Source: Sulfurihydrogenibium sp. (GTDB taxonomy: Bacteria > Aquificota > Aquificia > Aquificales > Hydrogenothermaceae). Taken from it: 45,611 nt of DNA. Of this stretch, positions 7,176 through 36,900 are shown one piece after another. The notes under the pieces are model-generated. The model worked only from the letters and a program-made list of their open reading frames with translations, was not told the origin of the DNA and did no database searches. Each line of letters starts with the position of its first letter. The first letter of the stretch is position 1. The translations under genes and the position numbers were made by a program. The stretch spans positions 1-45,611 of the forward strand of contig NZ_JAPYVU010000008.1 in NCBI RefSeq assembly GCF_028276765.1. Direction: 5' to 3'.

Positions 7176-7958
7176 ATGTTTCCAGACTTAATCAGTATTG
7201 GTGGTATCACTATACATACATACGGCGTTTTGACGGCTATTGGTCTTATAGTTGGTTTTTATGTTGGACTTTATCATGCTAAAAAAGAAGGTATTAACGA
7301 AAAAGATTACGAAAATGCCTTTATTCTTACAGTCTTAAGTGGTATTGTAGGAGCAAGAATTGCTTACATAATAGAGCATAAAGAAGATTTTGGTTCATTT
7401 TTAGATTTTTTCGCAATTTGGAATGGTGGAATTGATTGGTTTGGCGGTTTTTTAGGTGGTTTAGCAGCAGCTATATTGTATTTAAAATATAAAAACATAT
7501 CAATATTAAAAGTTGGTGATGTGGCGGGTGTTTCTATACCAATAGGACACTTTTTTGGAAGGCTTGGATGCACATCTGCAGGTTGTTGCTATGGAAAACC
7601 AGTTCCACCAGATTCACCTTTAAGAGATATTGCAATCATTTTTCCAAATGACCCACATTGTTTAGCACCAAAAGGCATACCACTTTATCCAACTCAGCCA
7701 GCGGAAGCAATAGGAAATCTCTTAATCTTTGCCATTTTATTTTATACATACAGAAAAAAGACATTTGACGGACAGATTTTATCTTTGTATCTTATACTTT
7801 ATGGATTTTTAAGATTCTTATTAGAATTTTGGAGAGGAGTAACGCCGCCTTTGCCATACATTGGTTTAACTTGGAATCAGATAATCACTTTATCGATGGT
7901 ATTAGCAGGAATAACTTTATTTTTCTACATGAAGAAAAAATATGCAAAATCTGTATAA
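7176..7958 (+). CDS. lgt: prolipoprotein diacylglyceryl transferase
   Basis: The 260-residue inner-membrane enzyme transfers diacylglycerol from phosphatidylglycerol to the lipobox cysteine. Several membrane helices are evident, together with the Lgt signature HFFGRLGCTSAGCCYGKP region (residues about 126-143) and the C-terminal YGFLRFLLEFWRG stretch with the conserved Arg/Glu residues. Its end overlaps folC by 17 bases, indicating translational coupling. Confidence 0.95.
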   Translation: MFPDLISIGGITIHTYGVLTAIGLIVGFYVGLYHAKKEGINEKDYENAFILTVLSGIVGARIAYIIEHKEDFGSFLDFFAIWNGGIDWFGGFLGGLAAAILYLKYKNISILKVGDVAGVSIPIGHFFGRLGCTSAGCCYGKPVPPDSPLRDIAIIFPNDPHCLAPKGIPLYPTQPAEAIGNLLIFAILFYTYRKKTFDGQILSLYLILYGFLRFLLEFWRGVTPPLPYIGLTWNQIITLSMVLAGITLFFYMKKKYAKSV

Positions 7959-9183
7959 CCTTTTTCAAAAAAAAGTATTTAACATTGAGCCAGGATTAGA
8001 AAGGATAAAGTCAGCGTTAAAAGAACTTAGCTATCCGGAGAAAAATTTTAAATCCATTCTTGTAGCAGGAACAAACGGTAAAGGTTCAACGTCAGCATAC
8101 TTGGAGAGTCTATTTAGACACTATGGCTACAAAACAGGATTGTTTACATCTCCGCATCTGATAAGAGAAAATGAAAGATGGCAGATAGACAGAAAAGAGA
8201 TCGACGATAAAAAATTACAAAATTACATCAATGAACTAAAACCAATCATAGAAAAATGCAATCTTACATATTTTGAAGCATGCACACTTTTAGCTTTTAA
8301 ATACTTTTCTGATGAAAAGGTAGATATTGCAGTTGTAGAGGTTGGTCTTGGTGGAAGGTGGGACTCGACAAATGTTTTAGAGCCGGAGATTTCAGTCATT
8401 ACAAACGTATCCTTTGACCATATGCACATGCTCGGAAACACGCTTTTAGATATAGCATTTGAAAAAACAGGCATTACAAGACAAGATAAACCGGCTGTAG
8501 TAGGAAGAAACCAGCCAGAAATCATCCATTGGCTTAAAGAAAGAAAGATAAAAGAGTATTACATCAAAGATATAGACTACTTTGTAAAAGAGATAGATTT
8601 TAATAAATACGACTATAGATTTAAAGAGTATATCTTTGAAAATTTAGAAATATTAATGCTTGGAAAAAGGCAGATAGAAAATTCAAGCTTAGCGTTAACA
8701 ACTTTCCTGCTATTTTTAGACAAGAACAACCAACCGGTTGTTGAAAACATAATCAGAAAAGCACTCTACAATACAAAATGGAAAGGAAGAATGGAAATTA
8801 TCAGCAAAAATCCTTTTATCATAATTGACGGAGCACATAATGAAGAAGGGCTTATAAAAACATTTCAAGAAATAAAGGAAATCTTTCCAAATAAAAAGAT
8901 TTTCACTATCTTCTCATTCATGAAAGATAAAGACACAGAAAAAATGATAAATATAATCAAGCAAAATAGTGATTTCTACATAGCTACAACAATGCCATTT
9001 TCAAGAGCAATGACAGCAGAAGATTTTAAAAATGTTGGTATTAAAAATGTAAAAGAAAATCATTTAGAAGCAGTTAAAGAGCTTAAAAACAGTGTAGATA
9101 AAGATACAATAATATTAATCACAGGTTCGTTATACTTAATAGGAGAGACCTTAAAAGATGGATGGAATACTTTTAGTAAATAA
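7942..9183 (+). CDS. folC: folylpolyglutamate/dihydrofolate synthase
   Basis: A 413-residue Mur-ligase-fold enzyme that adds glutamate to folates. The ATP-binding loop is GTNGKGST (about residues 43-50). Other family marks are TSPHLIRENER, VGLGGRWDSTN, NVSFDHMHMLG and IIDGAHNEEG. It overlaps lgt at its start and truB at its end, within the ttuB-truB operon. Confidence 0.94.
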   Translation: MQNLYNLFQKKVFNIEPGLERIKSALKELSYPEKNFKSILVAGTNGKGSTSAYLESLFRHYGYKTGLFTSPHLIRENERWQIDRKEIDDKKLQNYINELKPIIEKCNLTYFEACTLLAFKYFSDEKVDIAVVEVGLGGRWDSTNVLEPEISVITNVSFDHMHMLGNTLLDIAFEKTGITRQDKPAVVGRNQPEIIHWLKERKIKEYYIKDIDYFVKEIDFNKYDYRFKEYIFENLEILMLGKRQIENSSLALTTFLLFLDKNNQPVVENIIRKALYNTKWKGRMEIISKNPFIIIDGAHNEEGLIKTFQEIKEIFPNKKIFTIFSFMKDKDTEKMINIIKQNSDFYIATTMPFSRAMTAEDFKNVGIKNVKENHLEAVKELKNSVDKDTIILITGSLYLIGETLKDGWNTFSK

Positions 9184-17575: not shown

Positions 17576-17816
17576 ATAATTCACTTTTTTCGTATTCGTT
17601 GCGTGAAAAATTAAAAAATTATGAGATCTTTATTTGTTTTAAAAATTTATCACCCTTTAATACCTTCGCGAATACCTTCTGATTAAAAATTAGTGATTTT
17701 TATAGAATTCAGGAATAGATCTTTTGGACTTACGTCTTCAGAATGATAGCAAAAATGAAAGTATTAGCGGTTTTTATTGAATTTAAAAATGAGATCCTTC
17801 AGCCTTAATGCCTTAG
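17576..17816. other. gene-free, repeat-derived DNA
   Basis: It contains decayed MITE-2 pieces (GCGTGAAAAATT, then TTAGTGATTTTTATAGAATT) and the beginning of a MITE-2 copy that starts at about 17763 and continues into the 1038-bp duplicated unit. Confidence 0.5.
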
Positions 17817-17917
17817 GATGACAGAGAAAGCAAAAGTATGTTAACGATTGCCTTATTTGTCATTCTGCAGCCGACAAAGAATCTCTTAGTTTTATTGATT
17901 TATTCACTCTGACGTAT
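17763..17917 (-). repeat. MITE-2 copy at the left edge of the rpsP-khpA duplication
   Basis: It runs from TTAGCGGTTTTTATTGAATT through GAGATCCTTCAGCC and CATTCTGCAGCCGACAAAG to CACTCTGACGTAT, in the same layout as the copy at 27988-28153. Its right half is the recombining sequence in the tandem duplication. Confidence 0.65.
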
Positions 17918-17958
17918 CATTTAAGGAGATTAAAGATATTAAAGATATTCAGACTATA

Positions 17959-17986
17959 GAGGGTCCTTTTAGACCCTCAAACATTT
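17959..17986 (+). terminator. hairpin plus T-run beyond khpA
   Basis: GAGGGTC (17959-17965) pairs with GACCCTC (17972-17978) and is followed by a run of T at about 17983. In this direction it would stop plus-strand transcripts; for khpA on the minus strand the hairpin comes just after the stop codon but lacks the T-run. The same structure recurs at 18997-19024. Confidence 0.6.
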
Positions 17987-17989
17987 TTT

Positions 17990-18235
17990 TTATTCTAAAA
18001 TTTCAAGGACAGCTTTTTTATTTTCTTTTCTTGCAACTGAAGCTAAGATTACTCTCATCGCTCTTGCTGTTCTACCTTGTTTACCGATAACTTTTCCAAG
18101 GTCTTCTGGAGCAACTTTTAATTCAATAACTGTTACTTTTTCTCCTTCAATTTCTTTTACTTCAACTTTTTCTGGATGGTCAACGATAGCTTTTGCCATT
18201 TGCTCAACGATTTCCGTAAGTTTGCTCATATACAT
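17990..18235 (-). CDS. khpA: KhpA-type KH-domain RNA-binding protein, copy 1
   Basis: An 81-residue single KH domain with the RNA-binding GxxG loop in [15 protein letters not shown] (about residues 53-67). Such proteins bind RNA and are often encoded after rpsP, as here (5 bases after it). The start ATG at 18235 follows AGGAGG. Its product is identical to copy 2 at 19028-19273. Confidence 0.92.
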
Positions 18236-18240
18236 CCTCC

Positions 18241-18483
18241 TTATGCGTTAGTATTTAATCCAAAAGCTTTGAGAATTTTTAGCGCTCTTTCAGAAGGCTG
18301 TGCACCTTTTTTTATCCATTCTAAAGCCTTTTCTACATTAATATTTCCAGTTTTTAATATTGGATCATAGGTTCCAATATAGTCGATTGCTTTAGTTTCT
18401 CTTGGTTTTTTGCTATCTACTACAATCATTCTGTAAACTGGATGCTTTTTTCTACCTGCTCTTGATAATCTTATTCTAACCAA
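18241..18483 (-). CDS. rpsP: 30S ribosomal protein S16, copy 1
   Basis: The 80-residue protein begins [20 protein letters not shown], the S16 signature, and continues with [19 protein letters not shown]. It binds 16S rRNA in the small subunit. Two identical full copies in one genome are unusual. In many bacteria rpsP is followed by khpA, rimM and trmD; here the block stops after khpA. Confidence 0.97.
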
Positions 18484-18518
18484 AAAATAAACCTCCTCTA
18501 AAAAGAATTTAGTTAAAA

Positions 18519-18527
18519 ATTATATCA
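18519..18527 (-). promoter_or_regulatory. extended -10 promoter of rpsP-khpA, copy 1
   Basis: On the minus strand the sequence reads TGATATAAT, a TGnTATAAT extended -10 element, 36 bases before the rpsP start; no good -35 is visible. The same element is present in copy 2 at 19557-19565, so both copies should be expressed. Confidence 0.55.
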
Positions 18528-18570
18528 TATTTTTTGATTTCATTTTATGTATAATTCTCTGCAGTATTTG

Positions 18571-18850
18571 TTAAACCTTATTGCTGATAATGCTGCCTGT
18601 AAAATATCTTTCTTGCATAGGATTTCCATTTTCTTTATTTTGCCACTTTTCTTTACACATGCTGCACTCTCCTGCTATAAAGTATGAATCAGCTTTATCT
18701 GTTTGACTCTTGTCATTTAGCTTCCGTAAACTTCTTTATTGAAAAAGGCAATGACAAAAACTTGATCTATCCTTCCTTTTTCTCTCATGTCTGCAATTAT
18801 TATAAAACTTATTCTCTTAAGGCTTAAAAATTTTTGGTATACTTAATATA
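18571..18850 (-). pseudogene. possible decayed gene upstream of rpsP (unit 1)
   Basis: Two adjacent minus-strand segments in different frames look protein-like: 18717-18788 (MREKGRIDQVFVIAFFNKEV, then a stop) and one ending at 18571 that contains DSYFIAGECSMCKEKW. A single frameshift near 18720 would join them. The CSMC pair could be half of a metal site. No family is recognised. The same remnant is duplicated at 19609-19888. It could equally be chance. Confidence 0.35.
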
Positions 18851-19027
18851 CGACGATGACAGAGAAAGTAAAAGCATGTTAACAATTACCTTATTTGTCA
18901 TTCTGCAGCCGACAAAGAATCTCTTAGTTTTATTGATTTATTCACTCTGACGTATCATTTAAGGAGATTAAAGATATTAAAGATATTCAGACTATAGAGG
19001 GTCCTTTTAGACCCTCAAACATTTTTT

Positions 19028-19273
19028 TTATTCTAAAATTTCAAGGACAGCTTTTTTATTTTCTTTTCTTGCAACTGAAGCTAAGATTACTCTCATCGCT
19101 CTTGCTGTTCTACCTTGTTTACCGATAACTTTTCCAAGGTCTTCTGGAGCAACTTTTAATTCAATAACTGTTACTTTTTCTCCTTCAATTTCTTTTACTT
19201 CAACTTTTTCTGGATGGTCAACGATAGCTTTTGCCATTTGCTCAACGATTTCCGTAAGTTTGCTCATATACAT
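19028..19273 (-). CDS. khpA: KhpA-type KH-domain RNA-binding protein, copy 2
   Basis: Identical in protein sequence to copy 1, with the same AGGAGG ribosome site and the same following hairpin. The GxxG loop GKQG is intact. The lack of any difference implies a very recent duplication or ongoing homogenisation. Confidence 0.92.
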
Positions 19274-19278
19274 CCTCC

Positions 19279-19521
19279 TTATGCGTTAGTATTTAATCCA
19301 AAAGCTTTGAGAATTTTTAGCGCTCTTTCAGAAGGCTGTGCACCTTTTTTTATCCATTCTAAAGCCTTTTCTACATTAATATTTCCAGTTTTTAATATTG
19401 GATCATAGGTTCCAATATAGTCGATTGCTTTAGTTTCTCTTGGTTTTTTGCTATCTACTACAATCATTCTGTAAACTGGATGCTTTTTTCTACCTGCTCT
19501 TGATAATCTTATTCTAACCAA
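19279..19521 (-). CDS. rpsP: 30S ribosomal protein S16, copy 2
   Basis: Identical to copy 1 in protein sequence and in its upstream region, including the extended -10 promoter. It is the upstream half of the second rpsP-khpA unit. Whether both copies are needed cannot be told from sequence. Confidence 0.97.
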
Positions 19522-19556
19522 AAAATAAACCTCCTCTAAAAAGAATTTAGTTAAAA

Positions 19557-19565
19557 ATTATATCA
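19557..19565 (-). promoter_or_regulatory. extended -10 promoter of rpsP-khpA, copy 2
   Basis: TGATATAAT on the minus strand, in the same place as in copy 1. Confidence 0.55.
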
Positions 19566-19608
19566 TATTTTTTGATTTCATTTTATGTATAATTCTCTGC
19601 AGTATTTG

Positions 19609-20142: not shown

Positions 20143-20190
20143 ACGTGAGACGTGAAACGTGAGACGTGAGACGTTAAAGCGTTCAACGTT
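20143..20190 (+). repeat. heptanucleotide tandem repeat (ACGTGAR) upstream of the AAA+ gene
   Basis: About four 7-base units ACGTGAG/ACGTGAA run in tandem, then ACGTTAA and related bases up to the AAAGGAGGG ribosome site of the next gene. Related heptamers occur at 20822, 24566 and 44329. Confidence 0.85.
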
Positions 20191-20207: not shown

Positions 20208-21689
20208 ATGTACTACTATGACGAAGAAGCAGCTAATAGAGCACGTGCTAAAGCTATTTTATTCATCCTTAGCATTCCTATTTTAATCGTGATTGGTGAA
20301 TCACTTTTTCTTTTGTCAATGCCTGGAGTTGCTTTTGCTTTATTAGGCGTTCAGTATGGATATGAAGCATTGGGTTTAAACGTTAGCCATTCAGTCATAA
20401 TCGGCACTTTCCTATTCCTTCTCTTCCTAACCATGTTTCTTACAGCTTTTATAATATTCAAACGCATTCGTAAAGATAAAACATACAAAAGAATATTAAG
20501 GATATTAGAAATTTTTATTGTTTTAACAGGCATTTACTTCGGACATAAATCTTCAGACTCAAATGATGACGGTTATCTACTCTTAATCGGTGCTCTTCTG
20601 CCTTTCATCTTCCTATACATCTCTCTTAGAATTCTAAGAATATTCAGACGTAGCAACAGCACATACGAAAGAGCATTAGAGAAGTTGCAACTTTTCAACC
20701 AAACAGGAGACAGAAAATACCTTTTAACACCTGAAGAATCTAACGCTATCTTACAAAAGGCAAGGGAAAGAAGAATAAAAGAAGGAATTTCATTAAATCA
20801 ACCAACAAACACACCATCTCCCGTTCAACGTTCAACGTCCAACGTCCAACGTTTAGAATTAGATGTAGATGACTTAGAAAAATACTTAAAAGAGAAAATC
20901 GTAGGTCAAGATGATGCTATTAAGATGCTAACAGACGGGATTTATCAGCAAGCAAAAGCAGGAAATCAAAACTTTGGCTCATATCTATTTGTAGGACAAA
21001 CAGGTGTAGGTAAAACTGAAACTGCAAAGGCGTTGGCTGAGTATTTAAAGCCTTACGGATATGCATTCTATAGATTTGATATGAATAACTTTACAGAAGC
21101 TCATACTGCTTCAACGCTTCTTGGTGCTCCAAAGGGATATATTGGCTCTGAAGAAGGTGGATTGCTTCCAAGAAAGCTTCTTGAAAATCCAAGGGCTGTA
21201 ATACTGTTTGACGAGATAGAAAAAGCTCATCCGTCTCTTTACAGAATCTTTATGACGCTTATAGATGAAGGATACGTGCAAGAAGTAACTACAGGAATGA
21301 GAGTTCCTGCTAAAAACTCTATATTCATCTTTACCTCTAACCTATATCAAGAGACCATATCTGCCATTATGTCTTCTGATAAAGATGAGATAGAGAAAGA
21401 GATGCTAATATTAGATGTCTTGACAGGCAAAATACAGCCACTACCTACTGACTATATATACACAGACCAATACGGCATGCCATTTAAATTCCCTGCTGAA
21501 TTTGTAGCAAGAATAACTAAAGTAGTGCCATTTAGAAAACTAAGCTACCAAGACTTAGAAAAAATTGCCATTAAAATAGTAGGAGATAAAGATAAAGCAG
21601 TAAGACTTACAAAAGAGCTGTATCCGTTGGCTGAAAAGTATGGAGTTAGAGTGTTTGTTAAGAAGCTTAGAGAGAGAGTGTATAATTGA
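20208..21689 (+). CDS. membrane-anchored HSP100-like AAA+ ATPase
   Basis: The 493-residue protein has an N-terminal membrane part with about four helices (residues 16-34, 36-48, 62-84, 102-142 region), a linker, then one AAA+ module of the ClpB-D2/AAA_2 type. It shows Walker A GQTGVGKT (263-270), the aromatic pore loop GYIG (310-313), Walker B ILFDEIEKAHP (Asp335, Glu336), a likely arginine finger Arg435 (EFVARI) and sensor-2 Arg481 (YGVRV). All parts for ATP-driven threading of proteins are present, with no ClpP-docking IGF loop visible. It probably pulls or remodels membrane-linked protein substrates. Two unknown genes follow in the same direction. A strong AAAGGAGGG site precedes ATG 20208. 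No characterised system is recognised. Confidence 0.85.
   Translation: MYYYDEEAANRARAKAILFILSIPILIVIGESLFLLSMPGVAFALLGVQYGYEALGLNVSHSVIIGTFLFLLFLTMFLTAFIIFKRIRKDKTYKRILRILEIFIVLTGIYFGHKSSDSNDDGYLLLIGALLPFIFLYISLRILRIFRRSNSTYERALEKLQLFNQTGDRKYLLTPEESNAILQKARERRIKEGISLNQPTNTPSPVQRSTSNVQRLELDVDDLEKYLKEKIVGQDDAIKMLTDGIYQQAKAGNQNFGSYLFVGQTGVGKTETAKALAEYLKPYGYAFYRFDMNNFTEAHTASTLLGAPKGYIGSEEGGLLPRKLLENPRAVILFDEIEKAHPSLYRIFMTLIDEGYVQEVTTGMRVPAKNSIFIFTSNLYQETISAIMSSDKDEIEKEMLILDVLTGKIQPLPTDYIYTDQYGMPFKFPAEFVARITKVVPFRKLSYQDLEKIAIKIVGDKDKAVRLTKELYPLAEKYGVRVFVKKLRERVYN
20822..20853 (+). repeat. heptamer microsatellite inside the AAA+ gene
   Basis: Four units CGTTCAA, CGTTCAA, CGTCCAA, CGTCCAA encode the linker VQRSTSNVQR (residues 206-215) between the membrane part and the ATPase. 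Since the unit is 7 bases, gain or loss of one unit would shift the frame and remove the ATPase domain. Confidence 0.85.
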
Positions 21690-21769
21690 GTAAGAGTGAT
21701 TTCAGATAAGTTCAAATTTTGGTGTAATATAAATAATAAGGAGAAGTTAAATAAGGGAGGAATGATAAG

Positions 21770-22612
21770 ATGATGATTACAAAACACCCGTACTTATTTT
21801 GTGGAACGTTTGATGAAAATCCACTGTATTACCTATTCTTTAGCGAAAGTGGAGAGTTTGATGACGGCTTTGTTTATCCAATAAAGGCACAGATAGTTCC
21901 GTTGAAGTTTGAAGACGGTCCAAATGATCCGGTAGGGTCTAAAAGAAAGATAGAACTTTTGACATTCATAGCCAACATTAACATCATACTCTCATACAGA
22001 CATAATAAGTGGTTTAAAGAAAATATAAACACGCCTGCATCTCTTGAATCAAAGTCGGTAGTGCATTACAAAATCTTTTGGAACAGGGATAACATTGAGA
22101 TATTAGAAGACTTGGGAGAGCATGCAGAAGCTATAGACCGTCTTTTTGCGAAGAAAGGAGAGATACTCAAAAGACTTAAAATCTCTCAAGAAGAATACGA
22201 TAAATATTATCCTTTAGCAAGGGAGTATGTAATGTACTTAAGAAAAAGACATATGGAAGATAAAACAAAAATTCACGAACGTTTTTATGATTTGGAGATG
22301 GCCAGATATTTAAGTTCCTTCTATATCTACAACGAAAACGGACATCCATTGATAGATAGATATGTTAAAGACCACCATAAGATGTCTAAGTATCCACATT
22401 ACTTACATTATTTCTTCCAAGATGGTTTATATTATCCTTCATATGAAGCATGGGCAATTCCTTCAAGAAGGCTTGGAATACCTGAAAGTCTCATTATAGA
22501 GAAATACATTGAATATGCTAATAAACATACTCCTCCTGAGCTTGAGCCATTTAAGATGATTGCCTTTGAAGAAATGAGAAAATGGGGGGCTTATTTAAAA
22601 GTTATCAATTGA
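21770..22612 (+). CDS. unknown protein following the membrane AAA+ ATPase
   Basis: A 280-residue, mostly soluble protein rich in aromatic and charged residues, with no signal peptide or membrane helix. No family is recognised. Visible features are a beta-like N-terminal part (YLFCGTFDENPLYYLFF), a helical middle (KISQEEYDKYYPLAREYVMYL, residues about 141-161) and a His/Tyr-rich segment (DHHKMSKYPHYLHYFF, about 206-221). It starts at ATG 21770 behind a GGGAGGA site, 80 bases after the ATPase gene, and may be a substrate or adaptor for it. Confidence 0.7.
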   Translation: MMITKHPYLFCGTFDENPLYYLFFSESGEFDDGFVYPIKAQIVPLKFEDGPNDPVGSKRKIELLTFIANINIILSYRHNKWFKENINTPASLESKSVVHYKIFWNRDNIEILEDLGEHAEAIDRLFAKKGEILKRLKISQEEYDKYYPLAREYVMYLRKRHMEDKTKIHERFYDLEMARYLSSFYIYNENGHPLIDRYVKDHHKMSKYPHYLHYFFQDGLYYPSYEAWAIPSRRLGIPESLIIEKYIEYANKHTPPELEPFKMIAFEEMRKWGAYLKVIN

Positions 22613-22649
22613 TTTTAATATTTTAATACTTAAATGGAGGTATGTCGTC

Positions 22650-22925
22650 ATGAGAAAGATAATTCTTCAAGACGTGGAAGCAGAAAAAGAAGAGATAAGA
22701 AGAGAGCTTAACATTAAGGAAGATAAGGAAGTAAGAAATAATCAGGCAACTTCCCAGCCACAGCAACAATACTATCAACAATACTATCAGCAACCACAAC
22801 AACAAAACCCATTTCAAACAGACACAAAGTACGAGTTTATGTTAATTGCAATGAACCCAATTGTTGGTTTCATGTATCAGATATTTAAAGGATTGGCTTG
22901 GTTGATTTCAGGTAATAAAAGGTGA
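22650..22925 (+). CDS. small Gln/Tyr-rich protein with hydrophobic C-terminus
   Basis: The 91-residue protein has a charged helical start (QDVEAEKEEIRRELNIKEDKE), a low-complexity Gln/Tyr stretch (QQQYYQQYYQQPQQQ, about residues 38-52) and a hydrophobic or amphipathic C-terminal segment (LIAMNPIVGFMYQIFKGLAW). It resembles prion-like or condensate-forming tails. The start at 22650 follows GGAGG; an earlier ATG at 22642 stops after three codons. It is the third gene of the AAA+ cassette. The function is unknown. Confidence 0.7.
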   Translation: MRKIILQDVEAEKEEIRRELNIKEDKEVRNNQATSQPQQQYYQQYYQQPQQQNPFQTDTKYEFMLIAMNPIVGFMYQIFKGLAWLISGNKR

Positions 22926-23013: not shown

Positions 23014-23910
23014 TTATTTCTTTCCACGCCTTTTTTCTAATTCCATATTTTCTTTTTCTACAAGCTTAAAAAGTATTTCAAGCAGTCTCCTTCTTACGGT
23101 TTTAAGTGCTTTTACTTTATATATCCAGTGATATGTTATATATTTATTCAAATCTTTTAGTTTTTCATCCTTGTGTGTTATTTTGTATAGGTTTACTATT
23201 TCTATCGGTCTATATATTGTGTCTATTTTATCATCTCCTTCTTTCGATGCTTCTTTTAACTTTTCTGAAATCTCTTGCAGACTTATATCATGAACCGTTA
23301 AACTTTCTTTTTCTTCTGTGTTTTTGTTGACATTGTTCAGAAATTTTCGTTTCTTTTCTATTTCTTGATTTAAGAGTTCTATATCGTTTCTGATTGCTAC
23401 TTTTAATCTCATAGCATGTCCTATCGCATCTTCTAATGTTTTATGAATATCCAATTCTACTACATCTTTGATTAGGTCCTGTTTTAGTATCTCTATGCTT
23501 TCTATTGTTTCCGGTGAAAAATATTTTGTGTTTTTAAATACTATGATTAGATTGTATTTAAGTATGTCTGTATATTGTTTTATTTTGTCAAACTCATCTT
23601 CTTCTATTTCTATTTTTGAGTCTATTTCTTTTAAGGTTGATATTACAAACCCTACAAAGTCTTTCTCTGCTTGGATAAATTTTTGAATATTTTGTAGTTG
23701 GTTTTTTTCTTTTTTCATTTTAACTATAGAGAGAATAAATTCCATGAAAGCTTTTTTGCTTTTTATTAAACCTATTGCTTCTTCTTCTACTTTTGATGGG
23801 TCTTTTAGGAATTTAATATGCTCTCTCATTAGGCTTAATGATTGCAATGCTTGGAATAGGATGAAAGTTCCAAATTTTTCAAAGTTTTTAGGTTCTTTTT
23901 CTAAGATTTT
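23014..23910 (-). pseudogene. C-terminal part of a split helical-protein gene
   Basis: From the shift point to 23014 this frame encodes about 300 residues (277 from the first TTG, at 23847), almost entirely predicted helix and rich in Lys/Glu (for example IKSKKAFMEFILSIVKMKKE and VRRRLLEILFKLVEKENMEL). There is no membrane helix and no known family. No ATG or ribosome site marks a start. The frame is open upstream to a stop at the A8 run, and joining it to the next ORF gives the smooth sequence LNKTKKKRWEKILEKEPKNF. This points to one original gene of about 421 residues. Confidence 0.6.
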
Positions 23911-24280
23911 TTCCCACCTTTTTTTTAGTTTTATTTAGGTATTCTCCAAAAATCTTTAACCTTTCTTTATCTTCAATAAACTTATCCAATGTTATATTTT
24001 TATCTAAACTTTCTTTCTTTTTTATCTCTTCAAATGTTTTATTTATAAGCTTATCCACTTCAAGCTCAAACAAATAGCCTTCTGCCATTTCTTTCGAAAG
24101 CTTTTCTAACTCTCTTTTGTCTATATTGATGCTGTAGCTATCGAAAATAGACAGTATCTCTTTTGATAGAGCTTCTACATCTTGTCTTTGAATGTCTGAT
24201 GGAAATATTATTGGTCTGGTTCCTTCTCTATGCTCTTCATACATTTGTGCTAATTTTGATAATAAATCTTTTTTGTTCAT
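23888..24280 (-). pseudogene. N-terminal part of the same split gene
   Basis: It starts at ATG 24280 (MNKKDLLSKLAQMYEEHREG) and encodes a charged helical region for about 120 residues before entering a poly-A run (T8 on the plus strand, 23919-23926). Removing one base there continues into the downstream ORF. As it stands the product is 130 residues ending VGKNLRKRT. It could be a decayed gene, a sequencing slip at the homopolymer, or a case of transcriptional slippage, which is known at A8-A9 runs. Confidence 0.6.
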
Positions 24281-24352
24281 TCTTAACCTGGTCAGCCAAA
24301 CTGTACAAAATTCGCACAGCTTGGGTTGGGGTATTTGTATTCCGCCATTTCA

Positions 24353-24392
24353 GACACTTCCGTCCCCCAACAGGCGGTATTTTGGAAGTGTC
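24353..24392 (-). other. strong hairpin in the leader of the split gene
   Basis: GACACTTCC and GGAAGTGTC form a 9-bp perfect stem, with a further G/C-rich inner part (CCGCC facing GGGGG). It lies 73-112 bases upstream of the ATG at 24280. No T-run follows on either side, so it is not an ordinary terminator. Confidence 0.5.
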
Positions 24393-24565
24393 CTATTAGC
24401 CACTACTATCCAATCCTTTGAAATTATAACACGTTTCAAGCAGAAAGCTAAGGCTATGGAAAGAACTTGCCAACTTTTATGTCTGATTGCAGGCAAACGT
24501 CTCATCTGCTGCTTCCGTTGTCTGACAGGTTGTTGGGTAGCTGTCTTACTCTTTCCACTTTCTGA

Positions 24566-24591
24566 ACGTGAGACGTGAGAAGTGAGACGTG
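24566..24591 (+). repeat. heptamer repeat (ACGTGAG family)
   Basis: Units ACGTGAG, ACGTGAG, AAGTGAG, ACGTG in tandem, of the same family as at 20143 and 44329. Confidence 0.8.
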
Positions 24592-24661
24592 TTTTTGTAA
24601 TGTTTTTAAGTTTTTTCTTAGTTTTGCTAATGTGCTTTTTAGTTTATTTCTCTTGTATTCG

Positions 24662-25187: not shown

Positions 25188-25335
25188 AGTGTTCCAAAAT
25201 TCCCGTAAGTTTACCTTTCCTTGTCATCCCGAGGCCGTAATGTCGAAAGATCTCGTTTTTGATTTTTTGATTTGAAAAGAAAATTATGAGATTCTTCGCC
25301 GGCTGCAGAATGACAATTTTGATTTTTGGAACAGC
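25188..25335 (+). mobile_element. MITE-1, complete copy
   Basis: Ends AGTGTTCCAAAATTCC and ATTTTTGGAACAGC are inverted. Inside are TGTCATCCCGAGGCCG, AAAGATCTC, an AT-rich spacer, and GAGATTCTTCGCCGGCTGC. GGGTGAGAAAT lies directly on both sides, which could be an 11-12-bp target duplication. Confidence 0.75.
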
Positions 25336-25521
25336 CTCGGGTGAGAAATTGGGGAAAAGTGGGAGATTCTTTGCACAGCTTCAGAAATGACAGATTTTTA
25401 TTTTCCTCGTCATTCAACAGCGAAGTAAATGATCTCATTTTTATTTTTCTTTAAAGAGACATAAAAAGAGCCTTAACTTCAATCAAAATTAAAAACTTTC
25501 TAATTTCTAATCCAAACCCTT

Positions 25522-27987: not shown

Positions 27988-28153
27988 CCTATGGATGAGA
28001 AATTAATGATTTTTATAGAATTTAAAAAGGAGATCCTTCGGACTTACGTCTTCAGGAAGGTTAAATGATAAATATTAGAGAAAAGATAATCTTATTTGTC
28101 ATTCTGAGCGAAGCGAAGAATCTCCTGCTTTTATTGAATTTCTCGCCTGACGT
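27988..28153 (-). mobile_element. MITE-2 copy between the helicase gene and hemW
   Basis: A 166-bp element with ends CCTATGGATGAGAAATT and (other strand) ACGTCAGGCGAGAAATT. The internal modules GAGATCCTTCGGACTTACG and CATTCTGAGCGAAGCGAAG are present. It is flanked by the 27-bp direct repeat and carries no gene. Confidence 0.75.
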
Positions 28154-29303: not shown

Positions 29304-30749
29304 ATGGCAAAGAAAACAAAAGTAAAAAATAATGAGCCGTTAGAGGCTAAGCTTTGGAAAGCAGCAGACACTCTTAGAAAAAATATTGACGCAGCAGAAT
29401 ATAAACATGTTGTATTAGGCTTGATCTTTTTAAAGTACATTTCAGATGCCTTTGAAGAACTTTATGAAGAACTCAAAAAAGACCCTTACGCCGACCCGGA
29501 GGATAAAGACGAATATTTAGCAAAAAATGTTTTTTATATTCCAGAAAAGGCAAGATGGAGTGAGATTAAAAAACATGCAAAAAGTCCGGAGATAGGAAAA
29601 TACCTTGACGAAGCAATGGATGAAATAGAAAGAGAAAACCCACAATTAAAAGGTGTTTTACCAAAGGTTTATTCGAAAGGAAACATAGACCCATTATCTC
29701 TTGGCGGGCTTATAGACCTATTTGATAACATTGAGTTAGAAGCTGCAAAAGAAAAAAGCTCTGATGTGTTAGGTTATGTCTTTGAATACTTTTTAGGACA
29801 GTTTGCATTAGCTGAAGGAAAGAAAGGCGGGCAATTCTACACTCCAAAAAGCGTTGTAGAGCTGTTGGTAGAAATGATACAGCCGTTCAAAGGAAGAGTA
29901 TTCGACCCTTGCTGTGGCTCTGGCGGGATGTTTGTTCAATCTGAAAAGTTTGTATTAGCACATCAGGGAAGAATTGATGACATTTCTATATACGGACAAG
30001 AGAGTAACCAAACCACTTGGAAGCTTTGCAAAATGAATTTAGCAATCAGGCATATAGACAGCTCACAGGTAAAATGGAACAGTGAAGGCTCACTTTTAAA
30101 CGATGCACACAAAGACTTAAAGGCAGATTTCATATTGGCAAACCCGCCGTTTAATCAAAAAGAATGGGGAAGAGAACATTTAGAGAATGACCCAAGATGG
30201 CAGTATGGAATACCACCGGCAGGAAATGCAAACTATGCTTGGATACAGCATTTTATTTATCATTTAAGCAATAAAGGAAAAGCTGGGTTTGTTCTTGCTA
30301 AAGGTTCTTTAACATCTAAACAAAAAGAAGAGTATGAGATAAGAAAAAACTTAATAGAGGCTGATTTGATAGAGTGTATAGTAAATTTACCCCCTAAGCT
30401 GTTTTTAAATACAGGTATTCCTGCCTGTTTGTGGTTTATAAATAAAAACAAAAAAAGGAAAGGAGAAATTCTTTTTATAGATGCAAGGGATATGGGAGAG
30501 CTAATAAAAAGAAGACTAAGAGTTTTAAGACCTGAGGATATACGAAAGATTGCAGATACTTATCATCAGTGGCAAAAAGGTAGCGACGGAAATTATCAAG
30601 ATATAGCAGGTTTTTGCAAATCTGCAAGTTTGGATGAGGTAAGGAATTTAGATTATGTTTTAACCCCTGGCAGGTATGTTGGGCTTCCTGATGAAGATGA
30701 TGATTTTGACTTTGTAGAAAGGTTTAATAAGTTAAAGGCTGAGTTTTAA
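29304..30749 (+). CDS. hsdM: type I restriction-modification methyltransferase, C-terminally truncated
   Basis: The 481-residue protein has the HsdM N-terminal helical domain (LWKAADTLRKNIDAAEYKHV), the SAM-binding motif I FDPCCGSGGMF, and the catalytic NPPF motif (LANPPFNQ), so it is an N6-adenine methyltransferase. After Glu-Phe at 30741-30746 the frame has TAA (30747-30749) and then continues for 24 more codons (EQIKEEERLNKLILENLARL..., stop at 30822-30824). Those codons look exactly like the usual charged C-terminal helix of HsdM, so the stop appears to be a recent GAA-to-TAA change. The C-terminal helix helps dock HsdS, so assembly may be weakened. Confidence 0.92.
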   Translation: MAKKTKVKNNEPLEAKLWKAADTLRKNIDAAEYKHVVLGLIFLKYISDAFEELYEELKKDPYADPEDKDEYLAKNVFYIPEKARWSEIKKHAKSPEIGKYLDEAMDEIERENPQLKGVLPKVYSKGNIDPLSLGGLIDLFDNIELEAAKEKSSDVLGYVFEYFLGQFALAEGKKGGQFYTPKSVVELLVEMIQPFKGRVFDPCCGSGGMFVQSEKFVLAHQGRIDDISIYGQESNQTTWKLCKMNLAIRHIDSSQVKWNSEGSLLNDAHKDLKADFILANPPFNQKEWGREHLENDPRWQYGIPPAGNANYAWIQHFIYHLSNKGKAGFVLAKGSLTSKQKEEYEIRKNLIEADLIECIVNLPPKLFLNTGIPACLWFINKNKKRKGEILFIDARDMGELIKRRLRVLRPEDIRKIADTYHQWQKGSDGNYQDIAGFCKSASLDEVRNLDYVLTPGRYVGLPDEDDDFDFVERFNKLKAEF

Positions 30750-30824
30750 GAGCAAATAAAGGAAGAGGAGAGATTGAATAAACTTATCTTAGAGAATTTG
30801 GCAAGGTTGGATTTGGAGGGTTAA
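30750..30824 (+). pseudogene. stranded C-terminal tail of hsdM
   Basis: In frame after the hsdM TAA, these bases encode 24 residues beginning EQIKEEERLNKLILENLARL and ending in a second TAA. The heptad-like Leu/Glu/Lys pattern fits the HsdM tail. Restoring one base would give a 506-residue HsdM. Confidence 0.7.
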
Positions 30825-30837
30825 AGGTAAAGAGTTT

Positions 30838-32034
30838 TTGGAAGAGATAGAGTATATGGAAGATATTCCTGAAGGTTGGAAGTGTATGAAAGTAGAGGAA
30901 TTTGCAGAAGTTGTGAGTGGAGGAACACCGAGAACAGATAAACTAGAATTTTGGAATGGAGATATAGCTTGGATTACTCCAAAAGATTTATCTAATTTCA
31001 AATTTCGTTATATAGAGAGGGGAGAAAGGAACATTTCGAGAGAAGGGTTAGAAAATTCAAATGCAAAATTATTACCAAAAGGAACTGTTTTATTAAGCAG
31101 TAGAGCACCTGTAGGATATCTTGCTATTGCAAAAAATGAACTTTCTACAAATCAAGGCTTTCAAAGTTTAATACCTAAAGAAAATGTTATTTCGGAATTT
31201 TTATACTATCTTTTAAAAAATAATGTTGAATATTTAAAGTCGCAAGCATCAGGAACTACTTTTGGGGAACTATCAAAAAGCACATTAAAAAAGTTGACTT
31301 TCCCCCTCCCCCCTCTCCAAGAGCAAAAGGCTATAGCTGATGTTCTTTCAAGCATAGACGATAAAATAGAGCTATTACATCGTCAAAATAAAACACTTGA
31401 AGAAATGGCAATGACTTTATTCAGGCAGTGGTTTATTGAGCCAACAAAAGATGGATTGCCTGATGGATGGGAAGAAAAAAAGCTGAAAGATATTTATGTT
31501 TTTGAAAAAGGCATAGAACCAGGAAGCAGAAATTATTTAGAAACTCCAAGCGTTGATGCTATTAGATTTATAAGAGTTGGTGATATGTTAGACAATAAAG
31601 CTGATGTTTATATTAAGAAGGATTTAGCGGGAGATAGTATTTGTAAATTTGACGACCTTTTAGTTTCTTTTGACGGTACAGTTGGCAGGGTTTCATTTGG
31701 TTTAGTTGGTTGTTATTCATCAGGAATTAGGAAAATCTATTCAAAATATGAAATTTATAATAAGCTTTGGTTAAAGCACCAGATATTTATTAGCGAAGAA
31801 GTCCAAGATGAAATAAACATGCACGCAGAAGGCACAACAATTTTACATGCAAGCAGTAGCATTGATTATTTATCCTTTGCATTTCCACCAAAAGAAAAAA
31901 TTAAAGAATACGATAAATTTTTTGACCCTATCTATAAAAAGATATTACACAATAAAGCTCAAATCCAAACCCTTGAAAAACTAAGAGATGCACTACTACC
32001 AAAATTAATGAGCGGGGAGGTGAAAATAATATGA
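30838..32034 (+). CDS. hsdS: type I restriction-modification specificity subunit
   Basis: The 398-residue protein has the two-target-recognition-domain layout: TRD1 (about residues 1-160, WKCMKVEEFAEVVSGGTP), a conserved helical spacer (PLPPLQEQKAIADVLSSIDD), TRD2 (about 210-350), and a second helical spacer (KIQTLEKLRDALLPKLMSGE). It decides which DNA sequence HsdM and HsdR act on. The start may be TTG 30838 or ATG 30856. Its stop overlaps the OLD-like gene start by four bases. Confidence 0.9.
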   Translation: MEEIEYMEDIPEGWKCMKVEEFAEVVSGGTPRTDKLEFWNGDIAWITPKDLSNFKFRYIERGERNISREGLENSNAKLLPKGTVLLSSRAPVGYLAIAKNELSTNQGFQSLIPKENVISEFLYYLLKNNVEYLKSQASGTTFGELSKSTLKKLTFPLPPLQEQKAIADVLSSIDDKIELLHRQNKTLEEMAMTLFRQWFIEPTKDGLPDGWEEKKLKDIYVFEKGIEPGSRNYLETPSVDAIRFIRVGDMLDNKADVYIKKDLAGDSICKFDDLLVSFDGTVGRVSFGLVGCYSSGIRKIYSKYEIYNKLWLKHQIFISEEVQDEINMHAEGTTILHASSSIDYLSFAFPPKEKIKEYDKFFDPIYKKILHNKAQIQTLEKLRDALLPKLMSGEVKII

Positions 32035-33902
32035 AGATATCAAAATTAATTTTAGAAAACTTCAGAGGGTTTTATGGTAAACATGAAATTTTATTCGATA
32101 ATTTTAATGTTTTTATAGGAAAAAATGACCAAGGTAAATCTTCAATCTTGGAAGCAATAGATATTTTTATCTATGATGGGAAAGGGAATGTTAAAACAGA
32201 ATCAAAAGATTTAAATATTGACGCTGAAAAAAATGGAATTTCAGAATTTAAAATTGCTATAGAGTTTTCCGATGTCCCAAAATATGTGATTATTGATGCC
32301 TCCAATCCTACCTCCTTAGAAGATGAGTATTTGTTAAATGAGAACAATTTGTTAGAAATTTGGAAAATATTTAGGAATGGCAAGGTTGCAGATACCATTT
32401 TAAGATGCAAACATCCTGTTAATGATGATTTTTTGAAAAATATTATGAAAAAAAAGAGAAGTGAATTGCAAGAATTTGTAGAAGAAAAAGGAATATATGT
32501 AGCTGATAAACGAAAGGCAGCAGAGTTGCGAAAATCTATTAGAGAATATTACATAAAGAAAGATGGTGAACTTAAATATGATATTATAGATTTACCTATT
32601 AATGCTGAAGGTTTAAAAGATATTTGGAGTCAATTAAATAAATATCTTCCCATATATGCCCTTTTCCAATCGGATAGAAAAAACATAGATCAAGATGCAG
32701 AAATACAGGACCCATTAAAAATAAAAATTGAACAAGTTTTTAAAAAAGAGGAAATACAAGAAGCTCTTGAAAACATAGCTAAAAAAGTGAATAACGAAAT
32801 TAAAGAGATTGCTGATTTAATAATTCATAAATTCAAAGAAATATCAACCATTGAAACTTCAATATACCCAGATATCCCTAATGTCTCGGATCTTAAATGG
32901 AAGGATGTTTATAAGAATCTTGGGTTTAAGACTGAAGATGATATACCTTTAAACAAGAGGGGGAGTGGTTTTAGAAGAATTGTACTGCTAAGCTCTTTAT
33001 TAGTTGATGTTGAGAAAAAAACAGAAGGAAATGAAGATTCTCATGTGATATATGCAATTGAAGAACCAGAAACTTCTCTACACCCAGACCTACAGATAAA
33101 ATTGGTAAATTCTTTAATTGAATTATCAAAGAAAGCTAATTATCAAATAATATTGACTACGCATAGTCCAGCCTTAATAAGGTTGTTTGAGACTAAACAT
33201 ATAAAGTATGTTGAAAAAGTAGAAGGAAAATCTAGGGTTTTTGATTTTTCGGAGGAAATTGTCGGAAAAATTATTGAAAATCTTGGATTACTACCTGAAA
33301 TATCAAAGGTGGTTTTATGCGTAGAAGGCAAAATTGATGAACTATTTCTTAAAAATATAAATCAAAATATTGAAGAACTAAGAAAAATAATAGATTTAGA
33401 GGGTTGTATAAATAATGGACTTTTAGCCATTATTCCTATGAATGGAAGCAATCTAAAAGATTGGATTAATAGACATGCTTTAAAGAATACAAACGTAATC
33501 GAATATCATTTATACGATAGAGATCATAACGAGCAATATAAAAAAGCGATTGAAATCGTAAAATCAAGAGAAGATGGTTCAAAAGCTCAATTAACCAAAA
33601 AGAGAGAGATAGAAAATTATGTTCCGAAAGAAATCATAGAGGCAGAACTTGGAATTACTTTGAATATAGAAGACTCAGAATGGGATAATGCAGATATTGT
33701 GGAAGCTATTAAAAATTATGATAAATACAAAAAAATGAAAGACTCGGATATTAAAAAAATCATTTGCGGATCATGTGCAAAAAAAATAACCAAAGACCAC
33801 CTTGTAAAATTAGGTGCATGGGATGAGGTTAAGGGTTGGTTTGAGGATATAAAAGGCCTTATAGATAAGGCATGGAAAAGGAGGGATAATTCTCGTGCCT
33901 AA
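32031..33902 (+). CDS. OLD-like ATPase/TOPRIM nuclease embedded in the type I locus
   Basis: The 623-residue protein has an SMC/ABC-like ATPase: Walker A FIGKNDQGKSS (residues 28-38), Walker B IEEPETSLHPD, and the switch-like ILTTHSPALIRLF. A TOPRIM domain follows, with VLCVEGKIDELFL and YDRDHNEQ (Glu, and Asp-x-Asp). This is the design of OLD-family nucleases such as GajA. ATG 32031 overlaps the hsdS stop (ATGA), so it is translated with the restriction system. It is likely an extra defence effector; genes of this kind linked to hsd loci are known as restriction-linked ORFs. Confidence 0.85.
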   Translation: MKISKLILENFRGFYGKHEILFDNFNVFIGKNDQGKSSILEAIDIFIYDGKGNVKTESKDLNIDAEKNGISEFKIAIEFSDVPKYVIIDASNPTSLEDEYLLNENNLLEIWKIFRNGKVADTILRCKHPVNDDFLKNIMKKKRSELQEFVEEKGIYVADKRKAAELRKSIREYYIKKDGELKYDIIDLPINAEGLKDIWSQLNKYLPIYALFQSDRKNIDQDAEIQDPLKIKIEQVFKKEEIQEALENIAKKVNNEIKEIADLIIHKFKEISTIETSIYPDIPNVSDLKWKDVYKNLGFKTEDDIPLNKRGSGFRRIVLLSSLLVDVEKKTEGNEDSHVIYAIEEPETSLHPDLQIKLVNSLIELSKKANYQIILTTHSPALIRLFETKHIKYVEKVEGKSRVFDFSEEIVGKIIENLGLLPEISKVVLCVEGKIDELFLKNINQNIEELRKIIDLEGCINNGLLAIIPMNGSNLKDWINRHALKNTNVIEYHLYDRDHNEQYKKAIEIVKSREDGSKAQLTKKREIENYVPKEIIEAELGITLNIEDSEWDNADIVEAIKNYDKYKKMKDSDIKKIICGSCAKKITKDHLVKLGAWDEVKGWFEDIKGLIDKAWKRRDNSRA

Positions 33903-33954
33903 CCTTAACGAGTTTTCCATCAATATGAAAAGATAATAAAATGCGAGGGTTTTC

Positions 33955-36900
33955 ATGATATACGAAAACGAAATAGAACAGTTAGCTATAGACCAGCTAA
34001 AAGAAATTGGCTATGAATACTATCACGGACAAGAAATAGCTCCAAACAGCCAAAATCCAAAGAGACAATCTATAGAAGAAGTCATACACGAAGGAGACTT
34101 AAGAAATGCACTAAAAAGAATAAATCCAAACGTTCAATCAAACTTAATAGAAGAAGCTATAAAAACTATAAAGCATCCACACAGCCAAAACCTAATAGAC
34201 AACAACGAAAAATTTCATAAAATGCTTATAGAAGGCGTTAGTGTAAACTATATAAAAGACGGAGAAGAAAGAGCAGAAATTATAAAAATAATAGATTTTC
34301 AAAACCCAGAAAACAACCACTTTTTAGCAGTAAATCAATATACAGTAAAAGAGAAAAACAACATTAAAATACCTGATATAGTGCTGTTTATAAATGGCTT
34401 ACCGTTAGTAGTTATGGAGCTAAAAAATCCAACAGAAGAAGATGTAAATATCATGTCAGCCTACAATCAACTTCAAACCTACAAAGAAACTATACCATCA
34501 CTATTTACCTATAACGAAATACTCATAATCTCTGACGGAGAGGAAGCAAGAGCAGGGAGTTTGACAGCAGGATTTGACAGATTTCTTGCTTGGAAGTCAG
34601 CAGATGGAAAAACGATATCAAAAACTAATCAGCTGGAAACCATCATAAAAGGATTACTAAATAAAAAAACAATCATAGATTTTATAAAAAACTTTGCAGT
34701 ATTTCAAAAATCAAAATATGAAGATGAAAAAACAAGACAAATATTTATAACATTAGATAAAAAAATAGCAGCATATCATCAATACTACGCAGTAAATAAA
34801 GCTATCGAAACCACTATAAAGGCAATATTAGATAAAACAAGAAAAGCAGGCGTCATATGGCATACACAAGGCAGCGGAAAGTCTTTAACGATGGTATACT
34901 ACGCAGGGAAAATCATTCAACATCTAAACAATCCTACCATAGTAGTTTTAACAGATAGAAATGATTTAGACGACCAGCTTTTTGAAACATTTTCTCAATC
35001 TAAGGATCTTTTAAGACAAGAACCAAAAAAAGCAGAAAGTAGAGAAGATTTAAAACGGTTATTAAAAGTAAACTCAGGAGGTATTATTTTTACCACCATT
35101 CAAAAATTCTTGCCAGAAGATGGAAACGTCTTTGAGTTGTTATCAGAAAGAGAAAACATAATTGTTATAGCAGATGAAGCACACAGGACACAGTATGGCT
35201 TTAAAGCAAAGATAGATAAAAAGACAGGAGAGACCACCTACGGTTATGCAAAATACATAAGAGATGCATTACCAAACGCCACATTTATAGCCTTTACGGG
35301 AACGCCAATAGAAAAAGAAGATAAAAACACGCCAGCAGTGTTTGGAGACTATATAGACATATACTACATCTCACAATCAATAGAAGACAAAATGACAGTT
35401 CCTATATACTACGAAAGCAGGTTAATAAAAGTATCATTAACAGAGGAAGGAAAACAGCTTATAAAAGAGTTTGAAGAAGAATTGGAAGAAGTAGGCTTAG
35501 AATTGGTAGAACAAAGCGATAAGACAAAAAGACTTGAACAAATACTTGGAGCAGAAGACCGACTAAATCAGCTTGCAAAAGATATAGTAGAACATTTTGA
35601 AAAAAGGCAAGAAGTCTTCGAAGGAAAAGCCATGATAGTGGCATTATCAAGACCAATAGCAGCAAAGCTATATCAAAAAATCATACAGCTAAGACCGGAT
35701 TGGCACAGCGACGACCTGACAAAAGGAAAAATAAAAGTAGTCTATACCCGTAGCTCTTCTGATGGATCAGAAATAGCAAAGCACCATACCACAAAAGAGC
35801 AAAGAAAACTACTTCAAAAAAGAATGAAAGACCCACAAGATGAGCTAAAGCTTGTAATAGTAGTTGATATGTGGTTAACAGGCTTTGATGTACCATGCTT
35901 GCATACAATGTATATAGACAAACCAATGAAAGGACATACCCTTATGCAGGCTATAGCAAGAGTTAACAGAGTATACAAAGATAAACCAGGCGGATTAATA
36001 GTAGATTATCACGGAATAGCAACAGACCTAAAAGAAGCCCTTTCTTTCTACTCAAAAAGTGGAGGAAGAGGAGACCCGGCAATAATACAAGAAAAAGCGG
36101 TAGATTTAATGATAGATAAATACGAAATCGTCTCAAACATGCTGCATGGATTTAATTATAAAGAATACTTTACAACATCAGATACAAGGAAAAAGCTTGA
36201 TATATTAAGAGATGCAGTAGAATATGTACTTGGATTAGAAGATGGCAAAAAGAGATTTATAAAACATGTAACAGAACTTTCAAAATCTTTTGCACTGGCA
36301 ATACCACACGAAAAAGCATTAGAGATAAAGGACCATGTAGCATTTTTCCAAGCCGTAAAATCAAGAATATTAAAACTAACAAGCACAGGCGGAAACACAG
36401 ATAGAACATCAAAAGCAAACTACGAGATAGAAACAACCATAAAGCAGATATTAGACAAAGCTTTAATATCAGAACAAGTAATAGATGTATTTGAAATAGC
36501 AGGCATCAAAAAGCCAGAAATCAGTATATTATCTGAAGAATTCCTGTTAGAAATAAAAAATATGCAACATAAAAATATAGCAATAGAACTATTAAAAAGA
36601 ATTATAAACGACCAAATAAAGATAATAACAAAAAGAAGCTATGTAAAAAGCAAATCCTTATTAGAGCTATACGAGGAAATTATTAAAAAATATCAAAACA
36701 AAATCCTTACCGCAGCCCAAGTAATAGAAGAACTTCTTAATCTTGCAAGAGAAATAAGAGAAATAAGTAAAGAGCCAGAGCAAATGGGACTTACAGAATA
36801 CGAATACGCATTTTATACAGCAGTAGCAGACAATAAAAGTGCATTGGAATTGATGGGAAAAGAAAAATTAAAAGAGCTTGCGACAGTTTTATTCCAAGAG

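Follow-up and report, generated by a model that had tools for sequence, protein, structure and literature searches.

We find that the first of three co-directional genes in a stretch of Sulfurihydrogenibium DNA (45,611 nucleotides, called the window here) encodes an HSP100-like ATPase with a single AAA+ domain behind a four-helix membrane domain. The protein belongs to a small and patchily spread branch apart from ClpA, ClpB and ClpC, and the genes beside it change from one relative to the next. Our preferred reading, which we hold tentatively and at a little under an even chance, is that the gene 1 product is an accessory ATPase that remodels proteins while tethered to the membrane and whose partners can be exchanged, and that a role in conflict or defence is more likely than a housekeeping one. 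Three observations incline us toward defence: the spread is patchy, the closest relative has a CRISPR/CARF link, and the region behaves like an island. The features on which the argument draws are as follows.

20143..20174, plus strand: 7-bp tandem repeat ACGTGAG, 4.6 copies, just 5′ of gene 1
20208..21689, plus strand: gene 1, single-ring HSP100-like ATPase, 493 aa
20208..20650, plus strand: four-helix membrane domain of gene 1 (AlphaFold2 helices at residues 6–46, 59–85, 91–114 and 122–165)
20822..20853, plus strand: 7-bp tandem repeat CGTTCAA, 4.6 copies, in the membrane-to-AAA linker of gene 1
20877..21689, plus strand: AAA+ domain of gene 1, with the pore-loop family signature [SA]PKG[YF][IVL]GSE
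21770..22612, plus strand: gene 2, soluble aromatic-rich orphan, 280 aa
22650..22925, plus strand: gene 3, Q/Y-rich protein with a C-terminal hydrophobic helix, 91 aa
23014..23847, minus strand: gene 4, the 3′ piece of a disrupted coding region, which the sister genome G103 carries intact as a single 420-aa ORF
23888..24280, minus strand: gene 5, the 5′ part of the same broken 420-aa region, where the frame changes near an A8 homopolymer

The three open reading frames lie exactly where an earlier, sequence-only reading of this DNA had placed them, and codon usage supports all three. All three are on the plus strand, with 80 bp between genes 1 and 2 and 37 bp between genes 2 and 3. Each start is preceded by an AGGAGG-like ribosome site. 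Their in-frame codon-usage scores (0.26, 0.23 and 0.28 bits per codon for genes 1, 2 and 3) resemble those of well-known neighbour genes. In most other frames the scores are zero to negative, and all three are therefore plausible as genes. Promoter and terminator scans gave nothing better than shuffled sequence, and no RNA family was found between 17 and 30 kb of the window.

The AAA+ domain of gene 1 spans approximately residues 216–493 and matches AAA_2 with an E-value of 2.8e-35 in a profile search. We located Walker A (GQTGVGKT, 263), an aromatic pore loop (GYIG, 310), Walker B (ILFDEIEK, 332), sensor 1 (N378), the arginine finger (R435) and sensor 2 (R481), so that the protein carries the full set of features expected of the second nucleotide-binding module (NBD2) of HSP100 proteins. 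In an alignment of seven single-ring relatives, K269, D335, E336, N378, R435 and R481 are invariant, and the pore-loop aromatic position is the only one of the listed motifs that varies. The ClpP-binding tripeptide [LIVMF]G[FLMIV] was not found between sensor 1 and the arginine finger, so gene 1 has none of the IGL, IGF or LGF loops of ClpP-associated unfoldases; as controls from the same genome, a ClpC-like protein has MGF there and a ClpB-like protein is without the motif. Neither Peptidase_M41 nor the Clp N-domain gave a profile match anywhere in the 493-aa product. The closest solved structures by sequence are the second rings of ClpC and ClpB, and the top structural matches to the predicted model include ClpB NBD2 and the single-ring protein Skd3.

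N-terminal to this domain, and separated from it by a linker, lie four helices. Hydropathy gives three strong helices and one borderline, and AlphaFold2, run with seven sequences, models the first ~165 residues as four long helices before the AAA domain, with pLDDT values of 45–67 for this membrane part and mostly 75–95 for the AAA part. Positive charges precede helix 1, lie in the stretch that joins helix 2 to helix 3, and follow helix 4, and by this positive-inside pattern both ends of the membrane domain would be cytoplasmic. The anatomy that the sequence-only reading had described (pore loop, Walker motifs, arginine finger, sensor 2, a membrane domain and no ClpP loop) was thus read correctly. 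The membrane domain has no sequence relative in the 136 Aquificota genomes searched, with a pattern that sees close relatives only. A change in copy number of the 7-bp repeat in the linker would shift the frame, since the unit is not divisible by three, and judged from its sequence this repeat (20822–20853) could act as an on/off phase switch.

The gene 1 branch is present in 5 of 136 Aquificota genomes, spread over two families, and gene 1 itself was not found in a closed sister genome. The four Aquificota relatives recovered by the 136-genome search stand clearly above the ClpA/B/C background and have one AAA+ domain each. The closest is from Persephonella (L094/L206, ~50–51% identity over the AAA+ domain), followed by one from Aquificaceae (L095/L207, 46%) and two from Thermocrinis (L096/L209 and L097/L208, 44–45%). 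Their N-termini differ: the Persephonella protein has one strong hydrophobic segment by hydropathy, which we read by eye as a two-helix hairpin, the Aquificaceae protein (L207) is soluble there, and the two Thermocrinis proteins (L209 and L208) have four helices each. In viral contigs, searches by full length or generic motif returned only ordinary double-ring Clp proteins, and this was resolved with the signature pattern [SA]PKG[YF][IVL]GSE. That pattern occurs 20 times in 257 Gb of GTDB contigs, nine times in ATPases, and four of these nine are the same four Aquificota relatives.

A tree built from 43 AAA+ domains sets the five proteins from Aquificota apart from all other single- and double-ring HSP100s at a branch starred for its support (99/98), in a group that also takes in two long-branched PDC-M37B rows whose placement is unsure. 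Gene 1 and the Persephonella ATPase are sisters (97/84). Two membrane ATPases, one cyanobacterial (L211) and one acetobacterial (L212), were candidates for membership of the family until the tree excluded them, and the membrane proteins that flank them are dissimilar. The cyanobacterial ATPase, a membrane-anchored single-ring protein, is encoded directly 3′ of a TrwC relaxase and a TrwB coupling protein (L211 1594–9651). Plasmid matches in Capnocytophaga and Tenacibaculum were also rejected as relatives, being parts of type VI secretion loci or double-ring Clps.

The sequence-only reading had taken genes 1, 2 and 3 for a three-gene system, and it is here that we part from it. When we checked co-occurrence, all four Aquificota ATPase relatives were without genes 2 and 3, an outcome that the sequence-only reading had itself named as refuting, and gene 2 had no relative in the searched collections, with patterns that see close relatives only. 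We conclude that the trio is not a conserved system. Genes 4, 5 and 6 are also missing from all four neighbourhoods. The neighbours differ in each relative, and so the partners of the ATPase change between loci. Of the two Thermocrinis copies, one has a 106-aa orphan after it and the other has several orphans, among them a 472-aa protein and a Ser/Thr kinase-like protein. A CRISPR locus surrounds only the Persephonella relative; the other three lie amid unrelated genes or at contig ends.

The Persephonella ATPase (7761–8900) heads an apparent operon (L206 7761–10238) of three genes on the same strand, being followed after 61 bp by a 134-aa lipoprotein and after a further 8 bp by a 287-aa CARF protein with N-terminal membrane helices. 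The CARF protein matches the profiles Card1 CARF (E 9.8e-5), CARF8/CARF_TM (E 2e-39) and TM+CARF (E 2.7e-44). The operon adjoins a CRISPR-Lon/SAVED protein (E 6e-113, CalpL-like), a CRISPR-T-like protein, an HTH protein, Cas6, Cas2 and Cas1. Persephonella belongs to the same family as Sulfurihydrogenibium sp. YO3AOP1. It is from that strain that CalpL/T/S, the characterised version of the CRISPR-Lon cascade, comes (PMC11417357). The combination seen in Persephonella, with the ATPase, lipoprotein and CARF protein beside a CRISPR-Lon/T/HTH cascade, is apparently undescribed. We sought the CARF–ATPase operon elsewhere, and plasmids and viral contigs held no relative of the Persephonella CARF protein.

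A role in defence, which the sequence-only reading had raised, has indirect support, from the CRISPR/CARF locus of the closest relative, from the patchy distribution and from a type I restriction system nearby; against it, defence profiles gave no specific match for any gene of the trio, and the PDC-M37B and DolB matches are at the general AAA level. The profile searches that matched nothing specific also lend something to a different reading, in which the ATPase is an accessory membrane protein quality-control factor that in a thermophile draws damaged or mislocalised proteins out of the membrane; it would have no connection with phage and would resemble the heat-tolerance Clp proteins that plasmids carry. 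The ClpB-NBD2 core and the Skd3-like single ring favour this reading, and a motor that has no protease fits disaggregation. We consider it possible but unlikely, given that the phylum is thermophilic throughout and yet only 5 of its 136 genomes carry the branch, that the closed sister genome is without it, that its partners vary, and that its nearest relative sits inside a CRISPR ancillary locus.

Gene 2 encodes a soluble protein of 16% F+W+Y, and AlphaFold2 without an alignment gave it a mean pLDDT of 37. For gene 2, no relative was found in the 136 Aquificota genomes, plasmids, phages, IMG/VR or GTDB contigs, with patterns that see close relatives only. Gene 3 is kept in the sister genome G103 at 93% DNA identity with Ka 0.052, Ks 0.163 and Ka/Ks 0.32, and so is under purifying selection between species. 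A third match to gene 3 is weak (E 9e-4) and contains a stop codon. Glutamine makes up 16.5% of the gene 3 product, which contains QQQYYQQYYQQPQQQ and has a hydrophobic stretch at its C-terminus. Its Q/Y stretch had been described as prion-like, and a phase-separating partner had been raised as possible. We find this weak: the Q/Y-rich stretch is only ~19 residues long and arises partly from a 12-bp tandem DNA repeat, well short of the ~60 or more Q/N-rich, disordered residues of a prion-like domain.

The shortness of gene 3, its single hydrophobic C-terminal helix, its Ka/Ks of 0.32 and its place as the last gene in a co-directional set would also suit an addiction or abortive-infection module, in which gene 3 is a small toxic membrane peptide restrained or activated by the ATPase and gene 2. 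We regard this as improbable, since profile searches gave no toxin-family match and since the helix of gene 3 is only moderately hydrophobic. A further reading, which we hold very improbable, makes the ATPase a component of the apparatus of a transferable element, a motor in the membrane by which proteins would be unfolded or put in place during conjugation or mobilisation. It draws on the distant TrwC/TrwB-linked cyanobacterial ATPase described above and on a relative in another cyanobacterial genome that is followed by small ORFs resembling T4SS genes by eye, not by profile. That TrwC/TrwB-linked protein, however, lies across the starred branch from the Aquificota group, and no relaxase or secretion gene is found, either among the window's annotated genes or around the relatives.

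The sister genome G103, of the same genus, places gene 3 in an island. There, gene 3 sits right at one end of contig C183, in convergent orientation to uvrA, and contig C189 starts with the intact 420-aa ORF, followed by orphans of 131 and 169 aa and then pepA. The closed relative G100 has uvrA and pepA side by side with 187 bp between them, and so the ends of the two contigs border one insertion. Its genes share a single orientation, in the order 169-aa orphan, 131-aa orphan, 420-aa ORF, gap and gene 3, with uvrA beyond. The assembly gap starts a few bases into gene 3, where genes 1 and 2 would sit, which is suggestive of the gap holding them; neither gene was recovered from this genome, which is ~82% complete. 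The two orphans (L270 1312–2290) are absent from the window and from all other loci compared. The 420-aa protein and gene 3 have convincing matches in the same 2 of 136 genomes only. Because gene 3 persists in G103 under purifying selection and is linked there to the gene 4/5 product, we conclude that the island is real but that its membership is other than the trio.

In the window, the 420-aa frame, whose product is coiled-coil-like, is broken near the A8 run on the minus strand (~23919–23926). The break may reflect a real mutation, a site of slippage or an error in the sequencing. Since this region is broken and genes 1 and 2 were not recovered from G103, the copy of the island in the window may be decaying.

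To the right, the window continues with a DEAD/MZB helicase and a radical-SAM gene, both conserved in sister genomes. Still further right is the type I restriction system (29304–37077), with an AAA_15 (OLD-like) ATPase gene between its S and R genes; nothing at the equivalent place in closed G100 matches this region, and its first part has homologous sequence in G103. No cas, CARF or SAVED match was found by profile search among the scanned neighbours in the window itself. Left of the helicase, synteny is broken in every sister genome, and dispersed repeats of 100–200 bp lie at many places there. More widely, dispersed repeats of 100–400 bp number in the tens in this genome and in its sisters and frequently sit at synteny breaks; among their many sites are 24285–24660, 25188–25338 and 28000–28150. 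A tandem duplication with ~1038-bp spacing (17804–18534 and 18842–19572) carries two copies each of the rpsP and khpA-like ORFs, and closed G100 has a single copy of this unit. That the trio is a decaying remnant, strain-specific genes left by repeat-driven rearrangement with no present function, is the least probable of the readings, for although the adjoining gene 4/5 is frameshifted, the dispersed repeats are dense and nearby synteny is broken in every sister genome, the motifs and frames of genes 1–3 are intact, their codon usage is native-like, and gene 3 is under purifying selection between species.

Under our preferred reading of an accessory remodelling ATPase, membrane-tethered and horizontally variable, the single AAA+ domain of gene 1, a relative of ClpB NBD2, would most likely assemble into a hexamer that the four helices anchor to the inner membrane on its cytoplasmic side. 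The pore-loop aromatic would thread substrates and release them without a hand-over to ClpP, as in single-ring Skd3/CLPB. Across the branch the motor core is retained and the N-terminal anchor and adjacent partner genes differ, which suggests a motor with exchangeable sensor or substrate modules. These would be the membrane CARF protein in Persephonella and, in the window, the products of genes 2 and 3, probably joined by that of gene 4/5. As a partner or substrate at the membrane, gene 3 is the strongest candidate; gene 2 may be an adaptor. The role would lie in conflict between cell and genome, either as defence against phage and mobile DNA or as an element's own equipment.

A bolder proposal, which we consider doubtful, is that the Aquificota single-ring ATPases form a new class of sensor-coupled membrane unfoldases in immunity, in which a four- or two-helix motor that exchangeable sensors switch on (the cyclic-oligoadenylate-binding CARF membrane protein in Persephonella; genes 2, 3 and 4/5 in the window) converts infection into the remodelling of membrane proteins. 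If so, bacteria would have anchored a pared-down HSP100 motor in their membrane and coupled it to infection sensing, as a bacterial counterpart of single-ring Skd3. We found no such effector type in the texts of two surveys of type III CRISPR (PMC11229360, PMC12669027). The Persephonella operon, as the best-connected member of the family, would make an immune role testable.

Compared with known systems, gene 1 resembles FtsH in being a membrane-anchored AAA+ unfoldase, but it is of AAA_2/HSP100 rather than classic AAA type and is without the M41 zinc-protease domain. PDC-M37 and Dodola (DolB) also have ClpB-like single AAA+ proteins, and PDC-M37 pairs one with a membrane protein. Gene 1, however, matches PDC-M37B at E 4.9e-32 versus 1e-107 to 1e-129 in true members, roughly 80 to 100 orders of magnitude weaker, with no PDC-M37A match among its neighbours, and it matches DolB at the general AAA level (2.2e-27) with no DolA among the neighbours scanned. 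A link to a cas locus or to CARF/SAVED, the mark of a type III CRISPR ancillary protein, is present for the Persephonella relative and not in the window. The Persephonella ATPase shares membrane anchoring with gene 1 and is its sister, and it differs in having two membrane helices, with a lipoprotein and a CARF-TM protein as partners instead of genes 2 and 3. With NBD2 of ClpB, ClpA and ClpC, gene 1 shares AAA+ sequence, predicted fold, pore loop, sensor 1, arginine finger and sensor 2; in contrast to these proteins, it has one ring, four membrane helices in place of an N-domain or middle domain, a truncated C-terminal end and a separate branch in the tree. It is thus not a canonical HSP100 protein with two rings and a Clp N-domain, and it scores 165.8 bits versus an equivalog cut-off of 993. 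Skd3/CLPB is a single-ring mitochondrial disaggregase (PMC7343390, PMC9934407) that shares with gene 1 a single HSP100-type ring without ClpP and is a structural match to its model. Skd3 has ankyrin repeats and is mitochondrial, whereas gene 1 is bacterial and has a four-helix membrane anchor, and its architecture and predicted structure are compatible with a Skd3-like single-ring disaggregase.
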